A DNA stretch of 14,681 nt from an uncultured Collinsella sp. (lineage in GTDB: Bacteria > Actinomycetota > Coriobacteriia > Coriobacteriales > Coriobacteriaceae), in assembly GCA_900549025.1 (NCBI GenBank), contig URMZ01000036.1, positions 1 through 14,681 of the forward strand, written 5' to 3'. The translations under genes were made by a program, and so were the position numbers. The notes beneath the pieces were generated by a model. The model was not told where the DNA came from, made no database searches, and saw nothing but the letters and a program-made list of their open reading frames with translations. Numbering within the stretch: position 1 is the stretch's first letter; every line of letters starts with the position of its first letter. Positions 601 through 7,771 of the stretch are shown here, piece by piece.

Positions 601-725
601 GCTGGCCGCATGGGGTAACTTCCCAGCGCATTCCGCAGGACGCAAAAAGGCTCGCCGCACGAAGTGCGCAGCGAGCCTTTTTGCATGTCCGAGGACGCGC
701 TGGGAAGTTACCCCATGCGGCCAGC
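601..725. repeat. Long nested inverted-repeat element E1 (family shared with E2)
   Basis: A 125-bp element in the gap between the convergent TetR gene and the MIP channel, starting 21 bp past the channel's stop codon. Outer arms 601-629 and 697-725 match perfectly over 29 bp. Inside, ATTCCGCA (630-637) faces GAGGAC (691-696). Then GGAC (638-641) pairs with GTCC (687-690), a 2-nt bulge AT (685-686) sits on the right strand, and the inner stem 642-655 pairs with 671-684 (14 bp). The tip carries CGCAC-GAA-GTGCG. The outer stem resembles nothing else in the window, but the inner loop, 4-bp helix and bulge recur in E2. The two could belong to a structured RNA, a DNA hairpin recognised by a protein, or an elaborate terminator. 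The structure itself is read directly from the sequence; its function is unknown. Confidence 0.9.
644..682. terminator. Bidirectional intrinsic terminator forming the inner hairpin of E1
   Basis: GGCTCGC (649-655) pairs with GCGAGCC (671-677), flanked by five A (644-648) and five T (678-682). Each strand therefore presents a GC-rich hairpin followed by TTTTT. This is what is expected between convergent genes, and it should stop both the TetR transcript and the larA-channel transcript. Confidence 0.8.
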
Positions 726-746
726 GGACAACTATGTAGCCTCAGA

Positions 747-1478
747 CTAGAACATGCCCAAGAAACCATGCACAAACAGCGCGGCCAGAGCAGCACCGAC
801 AAACGGCGCGATGCCAGGAACAAGCAGGCCATACTTCCAGTTGTTGTCGGCCTTGTTCTTGATCGGCAGCACCTGATAGGCCATGCGAGGACCAAGGTCA
901 CGAGCCTGGTTCATGGCGAAGCCGGTGATGCCGCCCATGCCCATGCCAACAGCCCAAACGATCAGACCGACGCAGATGGCGAGCATCAGAACGTTCTCGC
1001 CAGCACGGTTAGCAGCAGCAAGGATGGCGCTGATGAACACGAAGGTGCAGATAGCCTCGCAGAAGAAGTTGCGGGCATAGTTGGTGCCCTCGGTGGTGGG
1101 GTTGGTCGAGAAGATGTTGCGCTGAGCAATGGGATCGATGACACCATCGGAAGCCTTGAACTCATCGGCATACATCAACCACGCGATCACGGCACCCGCA
1201 AAGCCGCCGAGCATATCAGCAACCATGAAGGGGATGCAGCTGCTCCACGGCACCAGGCCGACGATGCACTGGGCAAGCACCATGGCGGGGTTCATGCACA
1301 CGGCGCCGCCAAAGATAAACAGAGCAACCGAGATGCCAAAAGACCAGGTGGTGATGGCAAACATGTGGCCGGAGCCCTGATACTTGGTGCCCTTAAGCAC
1401 GGTATCGCAGTGCACGCCCACGCCAAAGATGATCATGAGGGCCGTTGCGCCGAATTCGCAGAGGAGTTTGGTAAGCAT
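747..1478 (-). CDS. larD: MIP-family channel (aquaglyceroporin type), probable lactic acid channel
   Basis: 243 residues, the usual length for a bacterial GlpF-type channel of six membrane helices plus two half-helices. The first pore motif is intact (GGAVCMNPAMVLAQ, near residues 57-70). The second reads GFAMNQARDLGPR, so the classical NPA is NQA while the selectivity-filter Arg in ARD is kept. ATG at 1478 follows TAAGG four bases upstream. The gene lies 49 bp downstream of larA on the same strand, with no terminator between, so the two are probably co-transcribed. In Lactobacillus plantarum larD, in the lar operon, encodes an aquaglyceroporin that carries lactic acid; the same pairing here suggests a lactate/lactic acid channel. 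Glycerol or another small neutral solute remains possible. The family is certain; the substrate is inferred from the neighbour. Confidence 0.85.
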   Translation of the reverse strand: MLTKLLCEFGATALMIIFGVGVHCDTVLKGTKYQGSGHMFAITTWSFGISVALFIFGGAVCMNPAMVLAQCIVGLVPWSSCIPFMVADMLGGFAGAVIAWLMYADEFKASDGVIDPIAQRNIFSTNPTTEGTNYARNFFCEAICTFVFISAILAAANRAGENVLMLAICVGLIVWAVGMGMGGITGFAMNQARDLGPRMAYQVLPIKNKADNNWKYGLLVPGIAPFVGAALAALFVHGFLGMF

Positions 1479-1503
1479 AAAACCTTATCTTTCTTGTCGG
1501 TTA

Positions 1504-1518
1504 TAAACGATTCGTTTA
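1504..1518. promoter_or_regulatory. Perfect 7-1-7 palindrome between larA and the channel gene
   Basis: TAAACGA-T-TCGTTTA, 10 bp beyond the larA stop and 25 bp before the channel ATG. A one-base centre is too tight for a good RNA hairpin, so a protein-binding site is the more natural reading. No second full copy was found in the window. Confidence 0.4.
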
Positions 1519-1527
1519 GGCCGCGTA

Positions 1528-2805
1528 CTAGTGCTGAGCGACGACAACGCCCAGGCCATCAGGAATGACGGCCACCTTGGCATCGGCACCCTTCATCTCA
1601 AAGGCGAGCTTGAGCGCCTCCTCGATAGTGTTGACCGGCGTCATGTGCATATCCTTGATCATCTGGTGATCGCACAGGTCGGTAACCATGATCACAGGGT
1701 GATGCGCCAGGATGCGGGCAAAGATCTGGCTCGTCCACTGGTCGGGCAGGGTCTCGTCCTTAGGACGGTCGATGCAGGCGCGCTCAAACTCTGCCGGATC
1801 ATTGTCGGCGATGTTGTGATAGAAGCCCTCGCCACCGTGACCGTCGGCACAACCGGCGACATCGATGATCACGCCGCCCTCGGGAAGTGTGGCCTCTGCA
1901 GAGCACATGCCCTTCACGGCCTGATAGATGTTCTGGTCGAGCGGGTAGCCGCCGTTGGTGGTAATGACAATCTCGCACTCGACGGGCTCAACGCCGGCAA
2001 GGCTCTTCACGAACTCGCAGCCAGCCTCGTGCGCCTTATGGATGTCGCCGGCAAAGGAGCCGATGACCTCGTGCTTGCCGTTGAGCACCACGTTGAGCAC
2101 AAAGGCAAGGTGAGCCATCTCGGCAGCGGCAAACATGTCCTCGCTCACGTGGTTGTGGCACAGGTTGCCGGCACGCGAATGGGAATCGTTCACAAACTGA
2201 CCGTTGTGGTTGTACATGATGGTCTTGTAGCTGGCGATACCAGGCAGGACGGACTTGCGGCTACCAGAGAAACCGGCAAAGAAGTGCGGCTCAATAAAGC
2301 CCTCGGCAAGCAGCAGATCGCAATCGGCAGCAATCTTGTTGATGATGCACTCGCCGCCAGAAGGCAGGGTGCCGATCTTTTTCATCATGCTGTCGTCGGT
2401 CGCGACGTGCATAACGATTTCCTCGTTGGCAACGATCTCCTCGCCATACTTGTTGACGAGCTCCTCGTGCGTCGACGGACGGTGCATACCCGTAGCAACC
2501 AAAATACGCACGCGAGCCTCGGGCGCAGCAGAATGAATGTGATGCAGCAGAATAGGCATCGTCACACGCGAGGGAACGGGACGCGTATGGTCGGAGCTAA
2601 TGATAACAATATCCTTCTTGCCAGCACAAAGCTCCTCGAGTGAAGGCGAGGCATAAGGGTTGGCAAGCGACTCCTCTACCAGCTCTTCCTGCGATTTCGT
2701 GGTCTTAAACTCGTTTTGATGACCCTCCATCACACCCGCGAAGTTCTTATCCTCGAGCTCTAGATGCAACGTCTTGTGGTCAAACGGTAGTTCACATTCA
2801 AACAA
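1528..2805 (-). CDS. larA: Nickel-pincer-dependent lactate racemase LarA
   Basis: Interconverts D- and L-lactate using a nickel pincer nucleotide (NPN) cofactor. I place the start at TTG 2803-2805, which gives 425 residues against 424 for L. plantarum LarA and removes a poorly conserved 47-residue extension that would begin at ATG 2946 inside a terminator. From TTG the active site falls on the published numbering: Asp72 and Arg75 in DHTRPVPSR, His108 in ATGMHRP, His174 in EPHFFAGFSG, Lys184 (covalent cofactor attachment) in SGSRKSVLPG, His200 (nickel ligand) in MYNHNG, Tyr294-Gln295-Lys298 in IYQAVK, and Trp357 in DQWTS (358 in the reference). No gaps are needed up to residue 298. The enzyme is cytoplasmic and is followed by a MIP channel. 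LarB, LarC and LarE, which make the cofactor, are not in the window. A related 2-hydroxyacid substrate cannot be excluded, but the channel neighbour favours lactate. Confidence 0.93.
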   Translation of the reverse strand: MFECELPFDHKTLHLELEDKNFAGVMEGHQNEFKTTKSQEELVEESLANPYASPSLEELCAGKKDIVIISSDHTRPVPSRVTMPILLHHIHSAAPEARVRILVATGMHRPSTHEELVNKYGEEIVANEEIVMHVATDDSMMKKIGTLPSGGECIINKIAADCDLLLAEGFIEPHFFAGFSGSRKSVLPGIASYKTIMYNHNGQFVNDSHSRAGNLCHNHVSEDMFAAAEMAHLAFVLNVVLNGKHEVIGSFAGDIHKAHEAGCEFVKSLAGVEPVECEIVITTNGGYPLDQNIYQAVKGMCSAEATLPEGGVIIDVAGCADGHGGEGFYHNIADNDPAEFERACIDRPKDETLPDQWTSQIFARILAHHPVIMVTDLCDHQMIKDMHMTPVNTIEEALKLAFEMKGADAKVAVIPDGLGVVVAQH

Positions 2806-2922
2806 TGATGAGCGCCCTCTTCCTTTCAACTGACACACTAGATAAACCGTTGGAAGGATACGCCGCTCACCGAAAAACACCACCGTCCACCGACTCATTA
2901 ACACAACGTTCATATTTGACCC
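2806..2922 (-). promoter_or_regulatory. larA leader and ribosome binding site
   Basis: The purine-rich stretch AAAGGAAGAGGG (2815-2826) lies 9 bases before TTG 2805 and supports that start over the in-frame ATG at 2946. Upstream, to the terminator at 2923-2962, the leader is AT-richer than the coding DNA, as expected for a promoter. I could not pick out a convincing -35/-10 pair; weak TATCTA-like and TATGAA-like hexamers lack good partners. Confidence 0.4.
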
Positions 2923-2962
2923 ACAACAAAACGGCCGCGATCCCAAACGGGACCGCGGCCGC
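2923..2962 (-). terminator. Strong intrinsic terminator upstream of larA (end of the ppc transcript)
   Basis: On the minus strand a 13-bp stem (2949-2961 with 2932-2944) closes on the 4-nt loop GTTT and is followed by TTTTGTTGTGG. The single imperfect position is a G-U wobble on the minus strand but an A-C mismatch on the plus strand, so the structure belongs to minus-strand RNA. It separates the ppc transcript from larA, making independent transcription of larA likely. Confidence 0.8.
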
Positions 2963-3074
2963 TACAGTCGTAAGGCGAGAAGCGCCACATGCATCTCAAT
3001 CTCAATCGATAAGACGCGAGGCGCGAAGCGCACTTTATTATCATCAGCTTTAATCCCAGAAGACCGAGGACGAA
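2963..3074. other. Non-coding stretch between the larA-side terminator and element E2
   Basis: No convincing reading frame. It holds two small GC hairpins: GGCG-AGAAG-CGCC near 2974-2986, and GCGC-GAA-GCGC inside GGCGCGAAGCGC. An AT-rich patch at ~3035-3055 reads GATAAT on the minus strand. With the strong terminator just beyond, it could be either the far 3' untranslated region of ppc or a short independent RNA; I cannot tell which. Confidence 0.35.
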
Positions 3075-3201
3075 GGGACCCGTCGGGTTTCCCTCTGAAT
3101 GCACTCCGCAGCACGAAGCCCCCTTATCCGCAGCTCTGAAGGAGCAGGATAAGGGGGCTTCAAGTGCGAGGACGCATTCAGAGGGAAACCCATCGGGTCC
3201 C
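3075..3201. repeat. Long nested inverted-repeat element E2 (family shared with E1)
   Basis: A 127-bp element starting 23 bp past the ppc stop codon. Outer arms 3075-3102 and 3174-3201 pair over 28 bp with two adjacent mismatches. ACTCCGCA (3103-3110) faces GAGGAC (3168-3173). GCAC (3111-3114) pairs with GTGC (3164-3167), AA (3162-3163) is bulged on the right strand, and the inner stem 3115-3129 pairs perfectly with 3147-3161 (15 bp). Near the tip TCCGCA followed by GCTC faces GAGC-A-GGA, a partial echo of the outer loop. Compared with E1, the outer and inner stems are unrelated in sequence, the internal loop is identical except T to C at one position, and the 4-bp helix carries a compensatory G-C to C-G swap. 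There is no T-run directly after it, so by itself it is not a classical terminator. Confidence 0.9.
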
Positions 3202-3224: not shown

Positions 3225-6038
3225 TTACCCCGTGTTCTGCAATCCTGCCGAGACGCCGGTCACAGTCGAAAGAATCAGGCTCATGTACTCGGCCTTCTTC
3301 TCCTCGGCCATCTCGTCCTGATTCATGCGCACCTCGCGAAGGGCGCGGACCTGGGCGATGGACAGAGCGTCGACGTAGGGGTTACGCACGCGAACGGCGC
3401 AGCCGAGCACGCGACGACGCTGCAGCGGCCACTCATCACCGACGATGGCAAGGACCCACTTACGCGTGAGCTGCATCTCGGTGAAGACCTTCTCGGACAA
3501 ATCATCGCGGTCGCCCAGGTGCAAATACATCTTGGCGATGCGCTGGTCGGTCTTGGCGATCGACATCTCGATGTTGTCGATAAAGGTGCGGAAGAACGGC
3601 CACTCCTGGTAGGCAGCCTTGAGCTGGTCAAGATCGCCCAGCTGCTCGCAGGCGGTGCCCAGGCCGTACCAAGCGGCCAGGTTAATGCGCGCCTGGCTCC
3701 AGCTGAAGATCCACGGAATGGTACGCAGGTCATCGAGCGACTTGGCGCCCAGGCCGCGCTTGGCGGGACGCGAGCCGATCGGCAGCAGACCGACCTCGGT
3801 CAGCGGCGTCACGGTCGAGAACCACGGTGTAAAGTCCTCGGTGTTCAGCAGGTCCAGATAGCGCTCGTGGCTTGCGGTGTTGAGCTTCTCGGCCATATCC
3901 CAGAACTTCTGAGTGGTCTCGGTGTTAGTCTTCTCGACACTCGGGGCCGACTGCAAAAGCGTTGCAGCAGCAACGGACTCAACATGGCGCTGAGCCAGCG
4001 TGCGGTTGCCGTAACGGGCAAAGATGACCTCGCCCTGCTCGGTGAGCTTAAAGAAGCAGTTGACCGAACCCTTGGGCTGCGCCAGCACGGCCTTGTTGGC
4101 CGGGCCGCCGCCACGGCCAACGGCACCGCCGCGACCGTGCATGAGTACCAGGTCGATATCGTTCTTCTCGGCCCACTTGGCAATGCGCTCCTGCGCGGAA
4201 TGCAGCGCGAGCATGGCCGTGGTAGGACCGGCGTCCTTGGAGGAGTCGGAATAGCCCAGCATAACCTCCATGCGGCGGTTGGTCTGGGCAAGACGCTTCT
4301 GCACCACGGGCAGCGTAAGCATCTGGTCGAGCACGTCGACGCAGCCCTCGAGGTCCTCGAGCTGCTCGAATAGCGGGATCACGTCGAGCTCGGGGACATC
4401 TTCCTCGTGTGCGAAGGACAGGTGGGCCAGCTCGAAGACGTCAGCCACATGCTGGGCGCTCTTGGTAAACGAGATGATGTAGCGGTGCGCCATCTTCTTG
4501 CCGTAGCGCTTTTGGATGGAGCCGATAGCACGGAAGGTATCGATGACTTCGCGCGTCATGGGCTGCAGGTCGCCATGGATACCGTTCTCGTGGATATCCT
4601 TGAGGGCGCGGGCATGCACCACGGAGTGCTGACGGAACTCCATCTCGACCATATGGAAGCCGAAGGACTCGACTTGCCAGATGATGGTCTGGACCGGGCC
4701 GTAGGCGGCACGGACGGCACCGCAGGCGGCCAGCGAACGCTGGACGACGCGCAGGTCATCCAGGAACTCGTCGGCGCTGTGGTACATGGTGTCGGTGATA
4801 CGGCGCACGGTGGCGTTCAGACGGTCGGCCATGACGAGCATGACGGCGCGATGCGGCTCGTGCTCGGAGATCAGCTCGGCGCGGGCCGTGTACCGAGGGC
4901 TCATCTCGACCTGATGGTTCCACAGGTTAATGAGCTCGGCCGACGGCTTGCTGTAGGTGGCCTCGAGCGTGAGGTTGCGGCCGATGTGGCGGCACTTGTC
5001 CTCGAGCTTGAGCACCATGTGCGTAAAGTACTTGGCGGCGACCTCACGGCTCACCTTGGCGGTGACGTTGGGGTTACCGTCGCGGTCGGAACCGATCCAG
5101 CTGCCGGGATGGAAGAACGCCGGGCACAGCGGCGGCACAGTACCGGCCTTGTCGCCCAGCACCCAATCGTCAAAACGACGATAGATAACGGGGATAACGT
5201 CGAACAGCGTGTTATCGAAGATGTCGATGATGGTATCGGCTTCCTCGACCGGCGTGGGCTTCTTGAGCGCGATGGGGCTCGTACGCACCAGGGCGTCGAT
5301 CTCCTGCAGCATATGGCGCTCGTTCTCCACCAGGTCGGAGCCGCCCAGACGCGGACGCTCCTCCAGCAGGTTGGAGATACGGCGGATCTTGCCCTCGACG
5401 GCCTTACGACGGGCCTCGGTGGGATGTGCGGTAAAGACAGGGTGGAACTCGAGCTTGTCGAGCAGCTCGTTGGCACCCTCGACACCCAGCTCATTCACCA
5501 GCTGGTGATAGGCAACGGTAAGCTCGTTGGCAGGATCGACCTCGGTATCGGTCGACGCACCGGCCTCGCGCTCGCGCAGCTGCGCCACACGGTAGTTCTC
5601 CTCCGACAGGTTTGCCAGATGGAAAAAGCTCGTAAAGGCGCGGACAATGACCTGCTGCTTATCGAGCGGCAGGCTGTCGATCAAATCGACGACCTCACGA
5701 AATGCCACGGCAGTGGGCTCGTCGGCGGTGGGCACGCCCTGCTCGTCGACGGCTTCGTCGGCAGCGCAGGTACCGGGGTTGCCGGCATTGACCACAATCT
5801 CGGCTGTCAAAATCTTGTCGAACAGGTCCGCGATCTCGGGATCATACTCGCTAAGCACACGGCGCTCCAGGCGCAAGAACAGCGCCAGATTGTCGCGCAG
5901 CTCCTCGGGGATCTCGATCTCGGCGAGACGCTCCCTGGACTCGGCATTCGAGCCGATTCGGTTAACGAGGCGGTTGACCACGGCAGCGACGCGCGCCGCG
6001 GCTTCGGGTACAGACTGGTTGCTTAGGTTCTCAGCCAC
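3225..6038 (-). CDS. ppc: Phosphoenolpyruvate carboxylase
   Basis: Carboxylates PEP with bicarbonate to oxaloacetate and phosphate, the anaplerotic entry to C4 acids. All hallmark motifs are present: HPVFTAHPTEA with the catalytic His (about residue 205), SWIGSDRDGNPNVT (~315), the loop GYSDSSKDAG (~597), and MHGRGGAVGRGGGP (~633-646, with Met where Phe is usual). The protein ends in the expected QNTG. At ~937 residues it is longer than the E. coli enzyme (883); much of the excess is an acidic stretch near residues 85-110. Two starts are possible. ATG 6050 has AGGAGG only one base away, too close, whereas GTG 6038 has GGAGG four bases away, so I chose GTG. It has its own promoter (6083-6110). 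Downstream lies E2 and then a terminator, so it is probably monocistronic. Confidence 0.96.
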   Translation of the reverse strand: MAENLSNQSVPEAAARVAAVVNRLVNRIGSNAESRERLAEIEIPEELRDNLALFLRLERRVLSEYDPEIADLFDKILTAEIVVNAGNPGTCAADEAVDEQGVPTADEPTAVAFREVVDLIDSLPLDKQQVIVRAFTSFFHLANLSEENYRVAQLREREAGASTDTEVDPANELTVAYHQLVNELGVEGANELLDKLEFHPVFTAHPTEARRKAVEGKIRRISNLLEERPRLGGSDLVENERHMLQEIDALVRTSPIALKKPTPVEEADTIIDIFDNTLFDVIPVIYRRFDDWVLGDKAGTVPPLCPAFFHPGSWIGSDRDGNPNVTAKVSREVAAKYFTHMVLKLEDKCRHIGRNLTLEATYSKPSAELINLWNHQVEMSPRYTARAELISEHEPHRAVMLVMADRLNATVRRITDTMYHSADEFLDDLRVVQRSLAACGAVRAAYGPVQTIIWQVESFGFHMVEMEFRQHSVVHARALKDIHENGIHGDLQPMTREVIDTFRAIGSIQKRYGKKMAHRYIISFTKSAQHVADVFELAHLSFAHEEDVPELDVIPLFEQLEDLEGCVDVLDQMLTLPVVQKRLAQTNRRMEVMLGYSDSSKDAGPTTAMLALHSAQERIAKWAEKNDIDLVLMHGRGGAVGRGGGPANKAVLAQPKGSVNCFFKLTEQGEVIFARYGNRTLAQRHVESVAAATLLQSAPSVEKTNTETTQKFWDMAEKLNTASHERYLDLLNTEDFTPWFSTVTPLTEVGLLPIGSRPAKRGLGAKSLDDLRTIPWIFSWSQARINLAAWYGLGTACEQLGDLDQLKAAYQEWPFFRTFIDNIEMSIAKTDQRIAKMYLHLGDRDDLSEKVFTEMQLTRKWVLAIVGDEWPLQRRRVLGCAVRVRNPYVDALSIAQVRALREVRMNQDEMAEEKKAEYMSLILSTVTGVSAGLQNTG

Positions 6039-6082
6039 GTTTCCTCCCATTCCTCCTTCTATGCACGTAACATGCGGTATTC

Positions 6083-7657: not shown

Positions 7658-7674
7658 CGGCACAAAGCAGCAAC

Positions 7675-7734
7675 GCGGCGGCGCGTCTGACCGAACGAGG
7701 GTATGGGGACTCGTTCGGCCAGACGTGCCGCCGC
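7675..7734. repeat. Long hairpin E5 between the MFS gene and hisS
   Basis: Arms 7675-7699 and 7710-7734 pair over 25 bp with two imperfect positions, closing on a 10-nt loop. It lies 37 bp past the MFS stop codon. Unlike E1-E4 it is a single uninterrupted stem without internal loops. No T-run follows on the minus strand (GTTGCTGCTTTG), so termination would have to be of an unusual kind. The promoter-proximal arm ends 17 bp upstream of the hisS -10. Confidence 0.85.
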
Positions 7735-7771
7735 GGGCGAAACGGACAGGTGGCGATGCGCCTTGGCCTAC

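Follow-up and report, generated by a model that had tools for sequence, protein, structure and literature searches.

Integron attC sites, which lie just past a stop codon and carry extrahelical bases, conserve their structure while the sequence of the stem varies, and conserve their outer ends, the R''/R' core sites used by the integron integrase. HMP-PP riboswitches control the gene downstream of them. The available part of PMC3733652 describes repetitive extragenic palindromes (REPs) as 20-40-bp units that have a stem consensus within each family and bear an unpaired tag, GTAG or CGTC, and reports that some REP dimers downstream of coding regions lie within longer palindromes; REPs are also targets of insertion sequences (ISs) according to the part available of PMC1525189, and the insertion of IS621 into REP elements is analyzed in PMC11208160, likewise available in part. 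The window considered here, the whole of a 14,681-nucleotide stretch from an uncultured Collinsella sp. (contig URMZ01000036.1 of assembly GCA_900549025.1), carries two elements, E1 and E2, that belong to a conserved family of long hairpins; what the first-pass annotation of the window had noticed as a pair is larger than first thought.

In the transcript, the layout of the element would be the stop codon of the host gene, a short gap, one arm of a 28-29-bp outer stem of variable sequence, CGUCCUC, an inner hairpin, UGCGGARUG, and the other outer arm. A covariance model (R1) was built from an alignment (A1) of 20 of 27 copies, E1 and E2 included, with L034 and six near-duplicates left out. In A1, 93.4% of the cells are paired, both sides change at 43 of 54 pairs, double changes fill 289 cells against 88.8 in shuffles, and sliding one arm lowers the pairing to 47% or less; many of its inner stems have A-rich/T-rich bases. 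The covariation score was reached by none of 500 shuffles, which ignore relatedness, both here and in a second alignment (A4, see below), in line with the earlier claim that pairing is kept while stem sequence changes. The 4-bp helix of the core occurs as GGAC/GTCC, GACC/GGTC, GCAC/GTGC, GCGC/GCGC, and other variants. Despite its variable sequence, the outer stem measures 28-29 bp in 70 of 94 copies, and it is present at 85 of 92 sites with the boxes plus an inner hairpin, against 11 of 600 random positions; core and inner hairpin stand without an outer stem at the remaining 7. Across the genus, R1 found the strong form (best E < 1e-30) in 23 of 43 genomes and weaker matches in 15 of the other 20, with none at E 1e-5 in 5; the copies above 100 bits, listed completely for four genomes of the window's group, number 15 (G040), 12 (G014), 13 (G024), and 13 (G008). 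TCCGCA is found in 80 and GAGGAC in 81 of 82 distinct model-found copies (L034 left out), the training copies of the model having been chosen by these same boxes. The pattern TCCGCAN{40,70}GAGGAC also matches coding sequence, and its counts were discarded. Covarying pairs at a conserved placement, as looked for in a conserved structured RNA, are thus present, and because the covariance-model search suggested earlier yielded many further copies in the genus and the class, with covarying stems and conserved loops, the reading as a structured fold is supported. The likeness to attC lies in structure over sequence, the position after a stop, and the extrahelical bases, but here it is the inner part that is conserved whereas the outer ends vary: in A1 and A4, the conserved positions lie near the tip, and no conserved R''/R' core sites are found at the outer ends.

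Both hairpins of the window are complete elements with the minus strand as sense strand, recognized by R1, by a second model (R2), and by folding: E1 (601..725) has a type I and E2 (3075..3201) a type II inner hairpin. Their coordinates, lengths, and orientation proved correct on rechecking, as did the distances of 21 bp from E1 to the stop of the minus-strand gene at 747-1478 and of 23 bp from E2 to that of the minus-strand gene at 3225-6050. By folding, the E1 arm distal to the host gene (601..629, 29 nt) pairs with the arm adjoining the host gene stop (697..725), and the distal arm of E2 (3075..3102, 28 nt) pairs with the arm (3174..3201) adjoining the stop of its host gene, which encodes phosphoenolpyruvate carboxylase (PEPC). 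On the plus strand, E1 reads AT-TCC-GCA followed by GGAC at 630..641 (sense GTCC-TGCGGA-AT), and an AT bulge, GTCC, and GAGGAC at 685..696 (sense GTCCTC-GGAC-AT), both conserved family-wide; E2 reads AC-TCC-GCA followed by GCAC at 3103..3114, and an AA bulge, GTGC, and GAGGAC at 3162..3173. The inner hairpin modules, assigned to the minus strand, span 642..684 in E1 (14-bp stem, CA bulge, CGCAC GAA GTGCG) and 3115..3161 in E2 (15-bp stem, GCA/A internal loop, GCTCT GAA GGAGC). The AYTCCGCA/GAGGAC boxes, the 4-bp helix (GGAC/GTCC in E1, GCAC/GTGC in E2), and the AT/AA bulge of the first-pass annotation are therefore all there, with two corrections: the boxes contain a 3-bp helix, TCC/GGA, flanked by AY/C and GCA/GA internal loops, and the core in gene sense is CGTCCTC..TGCGGARTG. 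Both elements fold as the self-complementary hairpins described, with RNA fold z-scores on the two strands of -17.0 and -16.2 for E1 and -14.8 and -14.3 for E2, none of 200 shuffles being equally stable on either strand. The statement that the stems share no sequence holds for E1 and E2 as a pair but not across the 20 copies of A1, where a loose outer-arm consensus exists together with strong covariation. R1, in whose training set both stand, matches E1 at 145 bits and E2 at 112.7 bits. R2, which contains no window sequence, matches E1 (E 4.8e-10) and E2 (E 2e-9) and nothing else in the whole window at E up to 1, so the two are more than chance hairpins. A third strong inverted repeat lies at 7674-7735 (26-nt arms, 92% complementary, 10 nt between) and has no R2 match.

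Other species have the element in a minimal form, whose inner hairpin is short. Of 296 class genomes, 59 have a match to the core pattern, bare matches including coding sequence, and minimal-copy sites were kept only with an outer-stem score passing 9. One alignment (A3) has 32 rows, leaving out 22 named loci, long-core rows, and duplicates; R2 was built from A4, which comprises 39 of 50 reference copies, the 11 left out being long-inner copies of G082 and G143, and apart from L403 none of these 39 minimal copies comes from the window's group. In A4, 92.7% of the cells are paired, with 96 double changes against 28.3 in shuffles, and a slid register leaves 53% or less paired. At E 1e-4, R2 matches 63 of the 296 class genomes. 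Within the genus, 34 of 37 genomes match, and in the other genera of its family 14 of 15 do; a further 9 belong to the order outside that family and 6 to the class outside that order. Since few candidates in each genome were scored, copy counts are lower bounds. One genome of another family of the class (G082, L428-L435) has 14 core-pattern matches, several with a similar inner hairpin and with weaker outer stems.

The strict core pattern was also found outside Coriobacteriia: 9 of 68 stretches in the genome collection come from records titled as other groups, where about 8 bare strict-pattern matches would be expected by chance (our own rough estimate). Long hairpins surround eight of these nine, which are assigned to Peregrinibacteria (L458), Peribacteria (L476, L503, L511), Krumholzibacteriia (L483, L512), UBP16 (L500), and Mogibacterium (L504), and the ninth (L485) has no outer stem. 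R2 was run on ten genomes containing such loci, seven of which do not belong to the class. Each of the four matches in a Krumholzibacteriia genome (G316) is a clear hairpin, the stems differing from one another and reaching ~33 pairs, and three of the four fall outside the strict pattern. In a Peregrinibacteria genome (G310), two further hairpins accompany L458; among 20 outside-class loci, 7 show no clear hairpin by the filter and L562 is unconvincing. Six of ten open reading frames (ORFs) beside outside-class elements have Pfam matches, including IF-2 and topoisomerase I, whose stops fall within the outer arm. These records are mostly metagenome assemblies, in which single contigs may be mis-binned.

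Placement relative to genes was read with a home-made gene caller at 89 copies, orthologues included: in 79 of the 88 with a called neighbor (one has none), the right-hand gene in motif orientation points into the element, and in 76 of those 79 its stop lies 9-35 nt away, whereas the left neighbor has either orientation and any distance. One hundred copies from 11 genomes form 18 clusters. Among 53 stem-filtered minimal copies (L406, L407, and L446 skipped as duplicates), 45 have a sense-strand ORF, 100 codons or longer, that ends near the stem; 44 of these end 4-39 nt before it and one overlaps it by 7 nt. An ORF of this kind on the other strand is present at 15 of the 53. Because the copies sit just past stops in a single orientation, a role in the 3' untranslated region (3'-UTR), as already suggested in the first-pass annotation, is favored over that of a mere repeat. 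Four loci (L247, L253, L261, L270) have a tRNA pointing away on the gene side and no called gene pointing into the element, and at L247 and L270 two elements stand tail to tail, ~170 bp apart; for the copy at L270:3321, likewise among those that no called gene points into, a sister copy of the same cluster (L278) lies 17 nt after an OppF-like gene. On either side of dnaA in G040, both orientations of the element are present (by eye), and no strand bias is claimed.

The host gene of E1 (747..1478, minus strand) encodes the D/L-lactic acid transporter LarD (NCBIfam NF043012, 418 bits, cutoff 390), and that of E2 (3225..6050, minus strand) PEPC (NF000584, E 1.9e-203, 678 bits, under the curated cutoff of 815). 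Besides these two, the hosts matched by NCBIfam in the window's group are GroEL, homoserine kinase, phosphofructokinase, aspartate-semialdehyde dehydrogenase, class II aldolase, a heavy-metal ATPase, GrcA3, branched-chain aminotransferase, Pta, PFOR, an OppF-like protein, and lactaldehyde reductase; the host at L271 has no NCBIfam match. Of the 45 minimal-copy hosts, 20 were scanned and 15 matched at the strict cut: GroEL three times, Pta, PurL, and an AdhE-like alcohol dehydrogenase twice each, and PFOR, aldolase, homoserine kinase, a heavy-metal ATPase, TypA, and ribosomal protein S10 once each. GroEL is thus a host both in the window's group and in another family (G133, G170), as are Pta and PFOR in G222, of another genus or family, and aldolase, homoserine kinase, and the heavy-metal ATPase recur in other species of the genus. 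Many hosts are metabolic or housekeeping genes, and many are probably highly expressed. In G045 (L259, L362), LarD with its E1 is 98% identical to the window and PEPC just 81%, and because of this difference the LarD/E1 locus was probably exchanged horizontally.

Taken as a whole, we favor, at a probability of roughly 0.45, the view that the element acts in the 3'-UTR as an RNA hairpin whose tip is read by a protein and which protects or defines the 3' ends of mRNAs. Placement, orientation, covariation, the conserved tip, and recurrence after some of the same genes across genera are its observed basis, from which we infer that the element, mostly 4-39 nt past the stop codon, would be transcribed at the mRNA end. 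The long outer stem, free in sequence and nearly fixed in length in the window's group, bears the conserved tip CGUCCUC/UGCGGARUG around the inner hairpin and would give the mRNA a stable 3' end resisting 3'-5' decay, and where a U-rich tail follows it may help to terminate transcription. A putative protein would read the internal-loop tip, which in this proposal would be why the tip rather than the stem sequence is conserved. Several observations weigh against this view. No called gene points into 9 of the 88 copies, 4 of which have a tRNA on that side pointing away, and 233 of the 296 class genomes have no R2 match at E 1e-4. Among 53 minimal copies, 21 have at least four U in the first 9 nt past the outer stem, and among 100 long copies 12 do; because such tails are in the minority and a terminator-like hairpin (2930..2963, minus strand; 15 pairs, 11 of them G-C) lies beyond E2, termination is not the common function; the scan that gave this hairpin found 3 sites in the region against a shuffle mean of 2.8. 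In G045, an intact PEPC gene has no E2 element, and a similar terminator-like hairpin is kept 3' of it. Stem mismatches show no preference for G.U over A.C (21 versus 22, in copies preselected for good pairing), although selection on an RNA would be expected to produce one, and on the antisense strand 87 of 94 copies have an apical GAA, GTA, or GCA loop. The balance of wobbles does not discriminate between RNA and DNA, since 76 ordinary hairpins after stops give the same result (19 versus 18), and the idea that equal counts signal upkeep at the DNA level was dropped after this control.

Those antisense loops bear on the possibility, placed beside the RNA motif in the first-pass annotation and regarded by us as unlikely, that the hairpin acts as DNA, as a cruciform or folded single strand whose tip on the antisense strand is read by a DNA-binding protein (gyrase, a nucleoid protein, or a recombinase), the placement after gene ends then reflecting the topology of transcription. 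The loops are of the kind known for stable DNA triloops, d(GNA) with a C-G closing pair, according to the part available of PMC5815330, and no such triloop is present on either strand of the 76 ordinary hairpins after stops. The core is moreover recognized as DNA by an IS110-like element (see below), and the stems have no wobble preference, although ordinary hairpins equally lack one. On the other hand, the fixed orientation and stop distance are more natural for a transcript, the U tails of some copies likewise speak for RNA, and the loops of minimal copies in other species vary more (GAA 12, AAA 10, GTAA 6, GCA 5, GCAA 5, ACA 3, and others).

It is rather improbable that core and inner hairpin form a REP-like unit, a small mobile element sitting in, or spreading with, gene-end palindromes and conserved as a selfish element is, yet the family does turn over. 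An unrelated inner hairpin may take the place of the previous one at a locus whose outer stem is kept, and one and the same inner module is present at different loci; the E1 locus, for example, has another module in G001, G019, G041, and G054. The PEPC locus has two alleles among strains whose PEPC is 99-100% identical, and of 12 genomes inspected by eye, six have an E2-like element with half of the other allele further downstream and six the reverse. The element thus turns over, yet its arms stay paired, and the earlier argument that this is no mobile repeat stands as regards the pairing but has to give way to some mobility, given the swapped modules and the differing PEPC-locus alleles. At the GrcA locus (L034:3323-3560), a long-form element minus one outer arm lies beside a complete minimal-form element, as tandem or recombined copies. 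The presence of several copies per genome, the shared and swapped inner modules, the PEPC-locus alleles with their half-element remnants, and the sporadic presence in other phyla all suit a REP-like unit, and REPs, too, sit downstream of genes and are IS targets (PMC3733652 and PMC1525189, in their available parts). Speaking against it, elements with different but paired stems stand after the same genes in different genera, the core with inner hairpin is rare without an outer stem (the 7 of 92 sites above), and no hairpin was found in 114 viral stretches with the loose pattern, nor any viral stretch with the core pattern, for which reason a phage origin was also rejected. In the terms of the part available of PMC3733652, the likeness to REPs and bacterial interspersed mosaic elements (GTAG and CGTC superfamilies) is that of palindromic, multi-copy elements mostly downstream of coding regions, and CGTC-tagged REPs have an unpaired CGTC end tag, an 8-9-bp stem almost always starting with AT, and a CCA-like tail. 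The hairpin element differs in that its stem is largely free and its conserved part consists of internal loops near the tip; in A1 and A4, by eye, the CGTC of the core is partly paired and there is neither an opening AT nor a CCA tail. GTAG-tagged REPs go with an associated tyrosine transposase (RAYT); the consensus of both alignments shows no GTAG tag.

The IS110-like insertions concern the same core. An IS interrupts three copies in which both of its junctions were seen (L255:494-3066, L252:2446-3232, L261:1942-3514), a fourth left end lies in L253, and insertion is always at TCCGCA; some IS copies are internally shorter. By eye, the transposase appears to be IS110-like (DEDD type). A search with the IS left end gave 11 strong matches, and of the 8 readable left ends in the genus, 7 adjoin the arm and box of the hairpin and the remaining one is at a different site that likewise reads TCCGCA. 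The non-coding end of the IS contains ACATTCCGC, nine bases common to the target (by eye), which is a possible candidate for a bridge-RNA guide. The situation is reminiscent of IS621 and other IS110 elements with bridge RNAs in that an IS110-like element inserts at the hairpin core, but the hairpin element is the target and not the IS itself. At the GroEL locus of two genomes (L032:3393-3410 and the same locus in L303), TCCGCACTGACG replaces TCCGCAGGACG and resembles an excision scar of the IS110-like element. The idea that outer arms are guides or spacers copied from elsewhere was rejected: 87 of 94 outer arms have no 16-mer elsewhere in 1.07 Mb of partly redundant Collinsella sequence, and the other 7, together with 8 inner matches, fall at places that we interpret as additional or broken element copies.

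That the copies are ordinary bidirectional transcription terminators with a chance resemblance is very unlikely, for although many inner stems have A-rich/T-rich bases and U-rich tails follow some outer stems in other species, terminators need neither a tip conserved across genera nor 28-29 bp of pairing, a GC-rich stem followed by a U tract is seen in a minority and not in the family as a whole, a terminator-like hairpin already lies beyond E2, and the triloops are unlike those of the 76 ordinary hairpins.

The element had not been recognized as a known motif in the first-pass annotation, and Rfam 15 agrees, giving nothing at gathering score for the window and 15 minimal-copy loci searched at a relaxed E-value, and, for 8 loci searched at the gathering threshold, 5 matches that are all tRNA. 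Among the titles and abstract openings listed in the literature searches, none was recognized as describing the hairpin element. The part available of PMC8040213 reports 250 candidates that are palindromic and, in Collinsella, one motif located upstream of L7/L12; one of these candidates may overlap the element. HMP-PP riboswitches and HRC-8-4, in the available part of PMC8632094, resemble it in having a strong terminator-like stem with conserved nucleotides at the tip, but the hairpin element follows the stop of its gene and in the window's group mostly lacks a U tail.

From an evolutionary point of view, a bolder and doubtful extension of the 3'-UTR hairpin would make it an ancient gene-end signal across several bacterial phyla, a general mRNA 3'-end cap with a stem of any sequence, a tip read by a conserved putative factor, and interchangeable inner modules. 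If the 3'-UTR proposal is right, a common gut genus would possess a multi-copy 3'-end element after many of its central-metabolism genes that is unmatched by Rfam 15, and the putative protein reading mRNA ends in these little-studied bacteria would be directly findable by pull-down. The hairpin also reveals sites that an IS110-like recombinase targets in nature, and it is a natural example of two arms changing in concert.

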